Source: Clostridium sp. DL-VIII (GTDB lineage: Bacteria > Bacillota > Clostridia > Clostridiales > Clostridiaceae). From it: a DNA stretch of 64,000 bases. A program made the position numbers and the translations under genes. The first letter of the stretch is position 1. Every line of letters starts with the position of its first letter. A model generated the notes under the pieces. It was not told the DNA's origin, ran no database searches, and saw only the letters and a list, made by a program, of their open reading frames with translations. Where the stretch lies: contig NZ_CM001240.1 of the NCBI RefSeq assembly GCF_000230835.1, forward strand, positions 5,110,779 through 5,174,778, read 5' to 3'. This document shows positions 37,119 through 64,000 of the stretch, piece after piece.

Positions 37119-37392
37119 AAAAAAATCCTCCATCCCAAACAAGGGACGAAGGAACTGCTTCGCGGTACCACCCTAATAAACAATATAAATATTGTTCACT
37201 CAGATAGAGTACAATTAATACTCCACCTCTATAACGTGAGGATTACGTTATAGCCTAATTAAAAGTTACATATAATAACTTTTATTTCTCAGCTATAAAA
37301 TTCAAAGGCTGCTTCCATAAGGCTCACTTACTAGATCGCACCAAACTCTAGCTCTCTTAAAAGTTAACTCTTATATACTATTCCTTATCACC
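37119..37392 (-). promoter_or_regulatory. T-box riboswitch, probable alanine specificity
   Basis: The minus strand carries the T-box core AGGGTGGTACCGCG (antiterminator bulge) followed by a perfect 11-bp terminator TCCTTCGTCCC / GGGATGGAGGA (37126-37153) and seven T. Upstream, Stem I has AGTA opposite GAA, between helices ATAAG/CTTAT and AAGG/CCTT. The next triplet, GCA (37310-37312), is an alanine codon. The TGGT bulge would pair with a tRNA discriminator A, as in tRNA-Ala. Uncharged tRNA would permit transcription of the regulator and aminotransferase. Confidence 0.93.
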
Positions 37393-37415
37393 ATTTTTTT
37401 AATATAAGTATTTGA

Positions 37416-44688: not shown

Positions 44689-44833
44689 TTTTTCTCCTTG
44701 TCCACTTAATGGTGACATATCAAATATAATTAATCCATCCATTCTCCTAATTAACAACATCACAAACTCTATAATTTTATTCTTATATTATACCCTATTT
44801 TCTAAACTCATAAATAAAGATATTTAACTTTAC

Positions 44834-44882
44834 AATAAAAGTCATGCTCTCTCACTAATTTGAAGAAAACATGACTTTTATT
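44834..44882 (-). terminator. Terminator between ranthipeptide maturase and M16 peptidase
   Basis: A 13-bp perfect stem AATAAAAGTCATG / CATGACTTTTATT, 23-nt loop. It follows the palindromic repeat in the minus-strand direction and would end transcripts from the scfB gene. Confidence 0.75.
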
Positions 44883-44951
44883 ATAGATTATTTCACATAA
44901 ACAATTTCTTAATTTGACTATCTAAAGATCTCACATGCCAGTTAGATTTTA

Positions 44952-45174
44952 TGTGTGCGGCTTTCACCAGAAATAACATACATTTTTATGAAGCAGGCAT
45001 TTGAAATTGAGCTGCTGAAAGCTCTTAATGGGAGTTTGTTCCATATTACTGCCTGTCCCGAACTTGCTTCGGGAACATGCTGAAATGGGTGCAAACTCCC
45101 ATTTAGAGCTTTCCAGCAAAAATTTCATAAGTCCTGCGGAATAAAAGTGTATGTTATTTCGGTACGCCCTCACA
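44952..45174. repeat. ~223-bp imperfect palindrome, copy A
   Basis: It folds nearly end to end: TGTG/CACA, AGAAATAACATACA with TGTATGTTATTTC, GCAGG with CCTGC, AATGGGAGTTTG with CAAACTCCCATT, and a CCCGAA/TTCGGG tip. It starts 5 bases after the stop of the radical SAM maturase gene. A second copy lies at 62547-62766 with matching architecture and compensatory base changes. It has no coding capacity and no known name that I recognise. Confidence 0.85.
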
Positions 45175-45178
45175 AAAT

Positions 45179-46540
45179 TTAGTTTTCTTCACTTTTCAAT
45201 GCAATTGCACATTCAATTCTCTTCTTTTGCATTTTACATCCAATTTCATAAGGAATATTCATATCGCCATTGAAATTAAAGTTATTTGCCTGGCATCCGC
45301 CACTGCAATAGAATTTAGCCCAGCATTCTTTACATTTAGGTTTGTTATATATATGGGCCTTCTTAAACTTCTTAGCAAGTTCAGTATCATAAGTATCTTC
45401 ATAAATACTTCCTAATTTAAATTCTTCTTTTCCTACAAATTGATGGCATGGATACACTTCGCCTTGTGGAGTTATTGCCACATATTCAAAACCTGCTCCA
45501 CATCCAGAAATTCTTTTATAAACACATGGGCCGCCTTGAAGATCTATATTGAAATGATAAAATTTAAATTCATCCTTACCTTCTCTTTTTCTTCTCGCCA
45601 TTTCTTCATATAACTTATCATAATTATCAAATATTGTGTCAATATCTTCTTCACGAATTGCAAGCTGATGTCCATTTTCTAACACAACAGGTTCTATGGA
45701 TAATTCTCTAAAACCTTCATTAACCATAGCCATTACATCTTCATAGAAATCTGTGTTTTCTCTTGTAAAGGTACCTCTTACATAATAAGTTTTCCCCTTA
45801 GTTCTTCTCTTTATCATTTCCTTAATATTAGGAATTATATCATCATATGATCCGCTCTTATCTGGCTTAATTCTAACCTTATCATTAACTTCTTTTCTTC
45901 CATCTAAAGAAAGGATTATATTTCCCATTTCCTTATCCATATAATCCATCATATCTGGAGTTAAGAGGGTCGCATTAGTAGTCATTGTAAATCTAATTTT
46001 CTTACCCCATTTTTCCTCATTATCTCTAGCATACTGGATTATTTCTTTTATAGTATCCATTATTAAAGTGGGCTCTCCGCCAAACAAATCAATTTCTATA
46101 TTTTTTCTTTGACCACTTCTTTTAATTACATAATCTATTGCTTTTTTTGCTGTATCAGCACTCATGACACCACCATGTCCATGATATTCCCCTTCATCAG
46201 CAAAACAATACTTACATCTTAGGTTACATCCATGAATTACATTTAAGCAGATGGCTTTTATATAATCTCTATCATCCATAGAGCTGTGTGCTATTTCTTC
46301 ATATTGGTCTTCTGAGTAAAGAATTCCTTCTTCAGCTAATTCCTGAATTTCATCATATGCTTCAGAAAGTTCTTCTTCATCATATTTTCCGCTAAGAGAA
46401 TCTAACACTTCTTTTTTATTTCTTAATTTATCATCATCTAATATATCATAAACTAGCTCGTCTACAACATGAACAGCACCTGTATTTACATCTAAGACAA
46501 AATAATTTTCACCTTGTTTAAATTTATGTATTAAAGACAA
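45179..46540 (-). CDS. scfB: SCIFF ranthipeptide maturase (radical SAM/SPASM)
   Basis: About 453 residues using a TTG start at 46540, eight bases after GAGGAGG. This gives the family-typical N-terminus (SLIHKFKQGENYFVLDV), which the ATG-based longer frame does not. The first ~90 residues are a peptide-recognition (RRE-like) region. The radical SAM CxxxCxxC is CNLRCKYC, and the C-terminal SPASM domain supplies cysteines for auxiliary Fe-S clusters (CKECWAKFYCSGGC). It installs thioether crosslinks in the SCIFF peptide encoded 112 bp upstream. A palindromic repeat follows directly. Confidence 0.95.
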   Translation of the reverse strand: MSLIHKFKQGENYFVLDVNTGAVHVVDELVYDILDDDKLRNKKEVLDSLSGKYDEEELSEAYDEIQELAEEGILYSEDQYEEIAHSSMDDRDYIKAICLNVIHGCNLRCKYCFADEGEYHGHGGVMSADTAKKAIDYVIKRSGQRKNIEIDLFGGEPTLIMDTIKEIIQYARDNEEKWGKKIRFTMTTNATLLTPDMMDYMDKEMGNIILSLDGRKEVNDKVRIKPDKSGSYDDIIPNIKEMIKRRTKGKTYYVRGTFTRENTDFYEDVMAMVNEGFRELSIEPVVLENGHQLAIREEDIDTIFDNYDKLYEEMARRKREGKDEFKFYHFNIDLQGGPCVYKRISGCGAGFEYVAITPQGEVYPCHQFVGKEEFKLGSIYEDTYDTELAKKFKKAHIYNKPKCKECWAKFYCSGGCQANNFNFNGDMNIPYEIGCKMQKKRIECAIALKSEEN

Positions 46541-46651
46541 TTTATTTTCCTCCTCAACATATAAGGCATACTCCAGAAAATAACTCATAGACTTACTATT
46601 TTCTTTCATATGCCTAAAGTAAGCAGTAACCATATAGCTACTGCTTGAAAA

Positions 46652-50172: not shown

Positions 50173-50280
50173 AAAAAAAGCCAACAATTAATTAACAAAT
50201 TAATCATTGGCCGGTTGCACCATTAACTCCAAATCCCCAAGGTGCCCAAAATAAGGAGATCCTTCAACATTTCCAACTTA
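50173..50280 (-). promoter_or_regulatory. Cyclic di-GMP-II riboswitch with overlapping terminator
   Basis: The minus strand matches the class II c-di-GMP aptamer: GTTGGAAA (P1 5' strand), then TTTTGGGCACC, GGAGTTA and GGTGCAACCGGCCAA. The pseudoknot pairs ATCTCC/GGGGAT and GCACC/GGTGC are visible. The 3' P1 strand (GGCCAA) is also the 5' arm of a 14-bp terminator (50180-50211) followed by seven T. Ligand binding should therefore block the terminator, an ON switch. The next gene, 290 bp downstream, is the MalT-like regulator. Confidence 0.88.
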
Positions 50281-50431
50281 ATTAGAATATATACTTAATA
50301 CTATTTTATTATAATTATCTATATGAATATTTTACCACATTTTCATGCATGAGTATACATATTTTGAGTTTTTTTCCTATAAACTGCGTTATATATGGAT
50401 ATTCAATACTAATTTAACTACACCTAAGAAC

Positions 50432-62265: not shown

Positions 62266-62546
62266 TGCCTTTGAAATAAAATAGAAGGTCAATGAGCTGT
62301 AATAAATTTTTCATCTTGGTTTTATACCAAGAAATATATTCTGATTTTGCTATACTTAATTGCGTATGAAGCAAAGAAACTATATAAACTTCCAAGTTAA
62401 AAAGTGGATTTATACACTTAGATAAATTCTTTAATTCCTAGTTCTTAGGTAATGTACAAGTCGAATTTATAATTATGATATGTATAGATAAACACTTTAT
62501 GAACTTAACTTATATACGGAATAACTATCTATTTAAGTTAAACTTT

Positions 62547-62766
62547 TGTGTGTACCTATACCAGAAATCACATACATTTTTGTGAAAGCGGCATTTGAAA
62601 TTGAGCTATGATGGTTCTTAGTGGGAGGTTGTTCCATTTCTGCTTGTCATGAACTTGTTTCAGGAACACGCAGAAATGGGCACAACCTTCCACTTAGAAC
62701 CTTTTAGCGAAAATTTCATAAGTCCGCTGGAATAAAAATGTATGTGATTTCGGTAAGTTGCCACAT
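62547..62766. repeat. ~220-bp imperfect palindrome, copy B
   Basis: Same fold and order as the copy at 44952-45174: AGAAATCACATACA with TGTATGTGATTTC, GCGG with CCGC, AGTGGGAGGTTG with CAACCTTCCACTT, and a GAACTTGTTTC tip. It begins 25 bases after the stop of the chemotaxis receptor gene. The other DNA from 62266 to 62546 shows nothing but AT-rich sequence and a small CTTGG/CCAAG hairpin. Confidence 0.85.
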
Positions 62767-62790
62767 AACTCTAAGTTCAAAGTTTGATAT

Positions 62791-64000
62791 CTATAAAGTA
62801 AATTTCTTTATTTGATTTATCATGGAAGTTGTCTTTTCCTTCAATAATTGTGAGGCTTCATCTACCTGATTTGATGAAGTGATCATATCTTGAGTAGTAG
62901 CTGCTATTTCTTCTGACGAAGCTGAATTTTCTTCTGCGACAACCGAAGTATTCTCTGCAACAGAAATAATTTCGTTTTTGCTATTATTTATCCCTAAAAT
63001 TGAACTGTTAATTTCACTTATCTTAGGTAAAATCTCTTCTATTGATTTAATTATATCCTTAAATGAATTTATTGAAGTATCTATTACTGAGACCTGCTTT
63101 GATAATTCATCATTTGCATCGCTTGTAGTTCTTGTAACTGCATTAGTTTCATCTTGTATTGATGCCAATAATTCATTAATATCATTTGAAGAATTCTTAG
63201 ATTGTTCAGCTAGTTTTCTAATTTCATCAGCTACAACAGCAAATCCTTTCCCTGCTTCTCCTGCCCTTGCAGCTTCAATTGCTGCATTTAATGCTAGAAG
63301 ATTTGTCTGATCAGCAATAGCATTTAATAAATCAGTAATTTCAGTAATTGCCTTAACACTATTAGTTAAATTAGATATTTTTGTGCTTACTTCCTTAAAT
63401 GACTTTGATATATCGCTTATGGAAGTTATAAGCTTTCCTAAATCTTTATTACTATTTTGAGCTTTAATATTTATATCATTTGTACTCTTATCAACACCAT
63501 TTATAGTTATTGTTATATCTTCCAATGTAATACCAAAAGCATTTAATGTGCTGTTCATTGTTGCAAGCTCTGATGCTTGATCAGAAGATCCTTGTGCTAC
63601 AGCATCAATAGCATTTGATATTTCTTTTGTTGAATTATTCATTTCTTCTGACAATGTTGAAAGTGAATTAGCTTCTTTAGATATAACGCTAGAATCCATT
63701 TCAATGTTTCTAAGTATATCTGCTATGGAAAGTATAGTTTTCTCTAGTGCCTTATTCATAATACCAAATTCATTGGTTAAATTCGTATCAATATCAATAG
63801 TAAAATCACCTTCTGATAAAGTTTGTAATTTGCCAGTAAATTCTTTTATTAAATTCTTAACAGTAAAGGTTACAACTAATGATATGGCAGTTAGTATTAA
63901 AAGTGATAATCCAAATATTATTTCAAATATTATCATATTCTTAGTATAGAGAGTTTTAGATTCATCGTTTTTTGAGTTAGCAATACCTTTTTCATAATCT
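62791..64000 (-). CDS. Methyl-accepting chemotaxis protein, N-terminus beyond the window
   Basis: The frame stays open to the right edge, so the first ATG inside the window is internal. Visible order: end of an extracytoplasmic sensor ([13 protein letters not shown]), one membrane helix ([23 protein letters not shown]), a HAMP domain, and the cytoplasmic signalling domain. The signalling domain has the hairpin tip [23 protein letters not shown] in two parts around the conserved Glu, then KLAEQS. It transmits attractant or repellent signals to CheA/CheW. The palindromic repeat copy B follows its stop. Confidence 0.93.

Follow-up and report, generated by a model that had tools for sequence, protein, structure and literature searches.

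The two long palindromes present in the window (the whole stretch of 64,000 nucleotides of the Clostridium sp. DL-VIII genome analysed here) are, with moderate confidence, best explained as copies of a mobile element of around 300 bp that is found in Clostridium, carries no transposase gene of its own, is likely moved by a transposase targeting TA, and has a hairpin that likely works as a folded RNA. Judging from sequence comparisons, the fold is under selection and is better conserved on the + strand, and a function of the hairpin as RNA is probable. The main rival explanation is that the hairpin has a role in transposition only.

Hairpins in the window and the family they belong to

The sequence-only reading had described a palindrome of about 220 bp in two copies, sharing one hairpin design and with changes affecting both arms together. 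The common design was confirmed by a covariance model and by RNA folding, which gave -112.7 kcal/mol (z -13.9) for copy 1 and -113.9 kcal/mol (z -15.1) for copy 2, with none of 200 shuffles folding as well as the window hairpins. The joint arm changes can also be read in both copies (ATAACA/TGTTAT to ATCACA/TGTGAT and GCAGG/CCTGC to GCGG/CCGC, and likewise AATGGG to AGTGGG and GAGTTTG to GAGGTTG). Both copies are thus real, but neither their number nor their length was complete: the genome has at least 42 of them, 40 places identified by BLAST with copy 1 plus 2 added by the covariance model, and the element measures around 300 bp. In copy 2 it exceeds the hairpin core by 75 nt on the 5' side and 39 nt on the 3' side. 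The features of both copies and of their surroundings, in which the genes next to copy 1 are unrelated to those next to copy 2, are collected in Table 1.

Table 1. Window copies of the hairpin element and neighbouring features, in window coordinates
Feature	Position	Strand	Basis
Hairpin core, copy 1 (the inverted ends can no longer be recognised)	44966..45163	+	Covariance model, 215.6 bits; RNA folding
Complete element, copy 2, 309 bp	62485..62793	+	Ends read directly; family model of ends
Hairpin core, copy 2	62560..62754	+	Covariance model, 218 bits; RNA folding
Left inverted end TAGATAAACAC, copy 2	62485..62495	+	Read directly
Right inverted end TTTGATATCTA, copy 2	62783..62793	+	Read directly
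TA, left presumed target duplication, copy 2	62483..62484		Rule from filled/empty site
TA, right presumed target duplication, copy 2	62794..62795		Rule from filled/empty site
SCIFF peptide maturase family gene (radical SAM/SPASM), convergent with copy 1	45179..46633	-	TIGR03974, 633 bits (cut-off 425)
Inverted repeat flanking copy 1 opposite the SCIFF gene, resembling a terminator by eye only	44831..44885		Repeat listing
Methyl-accepting chemotaxis-like gene beside copy 2	62791..63936	-	Chemotaxis model matches, all under curated cut-offs

For the covariance model (R1), 51 copies from six genomes were aligned, 13 of 64 copies being omitted (10 copies of the own genome with inserts, 1 long and 2 partial relatives). 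Matches were obtained in 20 of the 68 Clostridium genomes and, in a sample at the level of the order, in 16 of 194, of which 15 belong to the genus and one is a single weak match in another genus of the same taxonomic family. The number of matches per genome is limited by the number of candidates scored: four genomes gave between 136 and 150 matches among 150 candidates, in which a palindrome may have been counted on both strands, and at least 89 distinct places could be recognised among the matches listed for one genome, G069. Direct sampling of the own genome over 400 kb found 1 clear copy. Stretches of 200 kb contained 6 copies in G069 and none in G028, and 800 kb of G059 contained 40, not counting the weakest matches. 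A conserved stretch of the family is present in Clostridium beijerinckii HUN142, C. chromiireducens DSM 23318 and Clostridium sp. LS, among others, and 4 of its 55 matches, to be taken as candidates, fall in other genera. One copy of G069 is located on a second, small contig, perhaps a plasmid (C2:126351-126547); no blastn match with copy 1 was obtained in plasmid and phage records, nor did the neighbouring chemotaxis gene, used as query in a protein scan, match any viral contig, a result that says little about the element. On the assumption that replication starts at coordinate 1 and ends on the opposite side of the chromosome, a replichore bias appears in the own genome (31:11) and, among the matches listed, in G069 (60:28) and G030 (27:5), and is absent among those listed in G068 (12:10) and G059 (4:3).

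The hairpin had not been assigned to any named RNA family, and this agrees with the Rfam scan of the whole window, where the only matches at gathering level were a T-box leader (37139-37400, - strand) and a c-di-GMP-II riboswitch (50202-50283, - strand), both elsewhere; four loci of the family searched with E values up to 1 gave three chance-level matches, none near the gathering score. A search of the open-access literature yielded no description of the family, which may have been published elsewhere, and Table 3 of PMC2267715 includes only short repeat families for C. perfringens and C. tetani.

Ten of the 40 own copies (L025, L026, L028-L030, L034-L036, L038 and L039) contain an extra segment, always inserted at the same point of the 5' arm, following CTTAAG; its length is around 73 nt (for example L026:1428-1500), and greater in some copies. 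The segment is a repeat in its own right: 41 matches were obtained in the own genome, many of them outside the hairpin element, and a related segment occupies the same position of the 5' arm in copies of G069.

Inverted ends, insertion at TA and the source of transposase

A mobile hairpin element was one of the possibilities raised initially, and it is sustained by the dispersal of the copies, by their inverted ends and by a TA duplication at one site available in filled and empty form. In the own genome and several others, the left end of the family reads TAGATAWMCAA and the right end is its complement; in G030 and other genomes they differ or were not seen. Both ends, allowing up to 2 mismatches, were found at 53 of 110 places, versus 3 of 110 with shuffled flanks, and neither of them at 14. 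The exact 13-mer TTGGATATCTATA occurs 192 times in G069, 32 in G008 and 47 in G059, with 1 control match in each. In the window, copy 2 has inverted ends of 11 bp with a TA on each side, as the rule derived from the filled and empty site requires, and its right end supplies the TAG stop codon (62791-62793) of the chemotaxis-like gene.

That rule comes from the comparison of G059 and G008, two genomes close to each other (identity of mostly 93-99% over long matches), which have many copies in common and some present in one only. The clean case opposes an empty site, TTTC-TA-TATAAATAC, to a filled one, CTC-TA-[TAGATAAACAA...TTGTTTATCTA]-TA-TATAAATAC, and therefore indicates insertion at TA with duplication of TA. 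It is one of five present/absent alignments; among the other four there is one approximate fit, two in which neighbouring copies disturb the alignment, and one that corresponds to a deletion inside the hairpin. This deletion lies at the G059 site that matches the G008 copy at joined coordinate 52254, where only the base of the hairpin is left, its central part being absent, and the deletion ends resemble a short repeat common to both arms. Units of around 36-150 bp between the same inverted ends and without the hairpin were also observed (L102, L103, L105 and L107), and in other short units with family ends most or all of the hairpin is absent or the content is different.

There is no transposase gene inside the element, and no reading frame is conserved across 95 copies. 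A coding peptide was considered, given that 20 of the 95 copies have an open +2 frame of 50 codons or more and 25 an open -3 frame of that length (1 and 11 in shuffled sequences), and was rejected for lack of a frame conserved throughout the family. An autonomous partner with the same ends did not appear among the end pairs or the IS630 copies of the own genome, nor among the end pairs of G069 in the matches listed. Two candidates were discarded by reading their translations: a 1105-bp end pair of the own genome encloses a GalU-like gene, and a 2416-bp pair of G069 consists of two copies with a MurE-like gene between them, neither containing a transposase. The own genome has six near-identical elements of IS630 type, read in two frames (L108, L111, L114 and L116-L118); as partners they were also dismissed, since the IS630 copies end in TATATAAATTTTAAT, unlike the family ends. 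Many MITEs have been described for which no autonomous partner is known (PMC2229807). Of the features that define a MITE, the family presents terminal inverted repeats, a target-site duplication (at one site) and the absence of an internal transposase, and an autonomous element with the same ends was not found in the genomes searched; of those that would denote derivation from IS630, insertion at TA with duplication was observed at one site, and ends common with the IS630 of the host were not. A TA-targeting transposase, perhaps of the IS630/Tc1-mariner type and supplied in trans, would act on the inverted ends and move the MITE into TA sites.

Selection on the fold and its strand

The pairing of the hairpin has persisted while its sequence drifted. 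In the 51-copy alignment a standard pair occupies 96.5% of cells and, rather than each arm changing independently, 44 of 62 pairs have changed on both sides, with 0 of 500 shuffles reaching these values; shifting the partner by 1-3 columns reduces pairing to 35-49%. Covariation of this strength, and the conserved stretches, could also be expected of a conventional class of structured RNA or attenuator, not mobile and duplicated along with its genes. Such an origin is largely refuted by the filled and empty site, with its inverted ends and TA duplication, and the unrelated neighbours of the two window copies, the missing Rfam match and the result of a consensus scan, in which no sigma-70-like promoter was found on the + strand at either window copy, also speak against it, so that we consider it very improbable.

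The covariation is accompanied by a preference for one strand, as expected of a structured RNA. Prediction on a single strand biases the structure towards G-U on that strand, and the count was therefore repeated over 65 strand-symmetric pairs, taken from predictions on both strands and each at least 60% Watson-Crick, and gave 110 G-T versus 31 A-C; with a structure predicted from the minus strand alone the values were 55 and 25. The + strand is more stable than the minus strand in 49 of the 51 copies. On a tree of 95 copies (from 110 places, duplicates and copies longer than 215 nt being omitted), the inner branches carry 41 changes from Watson-Crick to G-U and 6 to A-C, a ratio for which the unpaired columns would predict 1.47; the terminal branches carry 70 and 32, where 0.81 would be predicted. 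The excess is thus not explained by the mutation bias of the unpaired columns (p 7e-5 inner, 1e-6 terminal), these p-values and those based on alignment cells being optimistic, given that related copies are not fully independent.

Copies that have stayed in place show the constraint too. Of the 40 copies of G059, 23 could be placed in G008: 15 with 12 or fewer differences, 5 with more and 3 that were omitted as poorly alignable. Grouping by hairpin difference lowers the hairpin rate of a group by construction, and for this reason only the comparison between paired and unpaired bases was considered. In the 15 orthologous copies, differences were counted in 36 of 4370 site comparisons at paired bases and in 57 of 1546 at unpaired bases (counts doubled, each locus being read from both sides), which means that paired bases change one fifth to one third as often as unpaired ones; p is 6e-7 with halved counts and 0.002 once broken pairs are removed from the unpaired class. 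A comparison using structure from the compared sequences was set aside, and its repetition without that bias agrees with the 15-copy result. The G-T to A-C proportion in this small set was 15:9 (p 0.31). The five other orthologous loci have strongly different hairpins (pooled difference 0.20, versus 0.15 in flanks), and at the three with joined coordinates 217730, 218259 and 330521 the difference in the hairpin is two to three times that of the flanks, perhaps as a result of hairpin exchange between copies.

These data bear on two further ways of accounting for the persistence of pairing. According to one of them, also proposed initially, the arms would correct each other during replication, pairing being maintained in this way with no need of selection. 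Double changes are indeed frequent on the tree (104 inner, 126 terminal), on whose deeper branches such copying may have contributed, and around half of them are double transitions, near the transition share of unpaired columns (0.52-0.54). Where this copying could be tested it found no support: all 36 pair changes in the 15 orthologous copies are single, with 0 double, which together with the fewer changes at paired bases favours selection on the fold; besides, the excess of G-T over A-C is unexpected from copying, and asymmetric internal loops persist. We therefore regard it as very unlikely. The other, a pure DNA parasite, supposes that the hairpin of the MITE matters only in transposition, for instance as a single-stranded form that draws the ends close to each other, and has no role after insertion. 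It accounts for the inverted ends and the TA duplication, and also for a pairing better conserved on inner branches, where changes from Watson-Crick to A-C or mismatch versus G-U are 31:41, than at the tips, where they are 98:70; G-T is, moreover, also tolerated in single-stranded DNA. The lower rate of change of paired than of unpaired bases in orthologous resident copies goes against it, and we judge it rather unlikely, albeit worth serious consideration.

The function of the folded form that the sequence-only reading had suggested would then be reflected in the selection seen for one strand and, in resident copies, for pairing. Pairing conserved through drift, mostly on one strand, makes it likely that the hairpin acts as a folded RNA, which would form in transcripts crossing the element, RNA rather than single-stranded DNA being the form presumably selected. 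At gene ends it could constitute a structure of the 3' UTR or of its antisense side, serving as a barrier or as a site of processing or stability, as described for ERIC and NEMIS. The weak points of an RNA function are that the favoured strand is often antisense to the adjacent gene and that no promoter was found at the window copies.

Location at gene ends and relation to known repeats

The position of the copies was analyzed with respect to genes defined as open frames of at least 80 codons, not as annotated genes. In 82 of 104 copies the gene on the 3' side of the element points towards it, and its stop codon lies at a median of around 40 nt from the hairpin, near the right end of the element. 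Tandem contexts in the same 104 copies are split 53:14 (21:5 in the own genome, 32:9 in the other genomes of the sample), and many copies have their favoured strand in antisense to the gene beside them. This bias is absent from the 40 copies in 800 kb of G059, where the split is 15:12, so an antisense position at gene ends is not general and is retained only as a lineage-dependent observation. In copy 1, the stop codon of the SCIFF peptide maturase family gene is 16 nt from the hairpin, and a terminator scan gave no call at the inverted repeat on the other side; by eye, several copies, copy 1 among them, seem to have landed between a stop codon and a terminator. A bolder version of the RNA function, in which dozens to hundreds of copies of one selected fold, borne by a transposon and placed behind Clostridium stop codons, would form a genome-wide, strand-specific layer of 3'-end control kept by selection, seems doubtful to us.

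Bacterial MITEs are often regarded as decaying parasites. This family, which accounts for many of the intergenic hairpins in these clostridia, is dense in the 20 of 68 genus genomes that have it, and makes it possible to measure copy by copy whether the fold of a transposon is retained after insertion, and on which strand. Both tests used here, the strand test (G-T versus A-C) and the comparison of orthologous copies, could also be applied to ERIC, NEMIS and bcr1.

By their descriptions, several known repeats resemble the Clostridium family. ERIC or IRU, of enterobacteria, is also a non-autonomous intergenic repeat with inverted ends, terminal TA and a long hairpin, and an orientation-dependent effect on mRNA stability is reported for it (PMC2229807). 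NEMIS or Correia elements of Neisseria have the inverted ends, the TA and the long hairpin too, the latter having been proposed as a substrate of RNase III, and exist in a longer form with an internal 50-bp segment, reminiscent of the Clostridium copies with inserts (PMC2229807). Both are shorter than the approximately 300 bp of the Clostridium family (127 bp for ERIC, 107-155 bp for NEMIS) and belong to other hosts. RUP, of Streptococcus pneumoniae, is a 107-bp MITE that targets TA and for which mobilisation by IS630-Spn1 has been proposed (PMC2229807), whereas no mobilising IS was found for the Clostridium family. Among Firmicutes, the intergenic repeats bcr1-bcr18 of the Bacillus cereus group are in some cases MITE-like and in some have a conserved fold, and 84 of 165 and 62 of 155 copies in two strains lie within mRNAs (PMC3446304); bcr1 measures 147-167 bp (PMC2267715) and belongs to another genus. 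The architecture was therefore already known from ERIC, NEMIS and RUP, and what this work may add, from sequence evidence alone, is selection acting on one strand of the hairpin and on copies resident in the genome.
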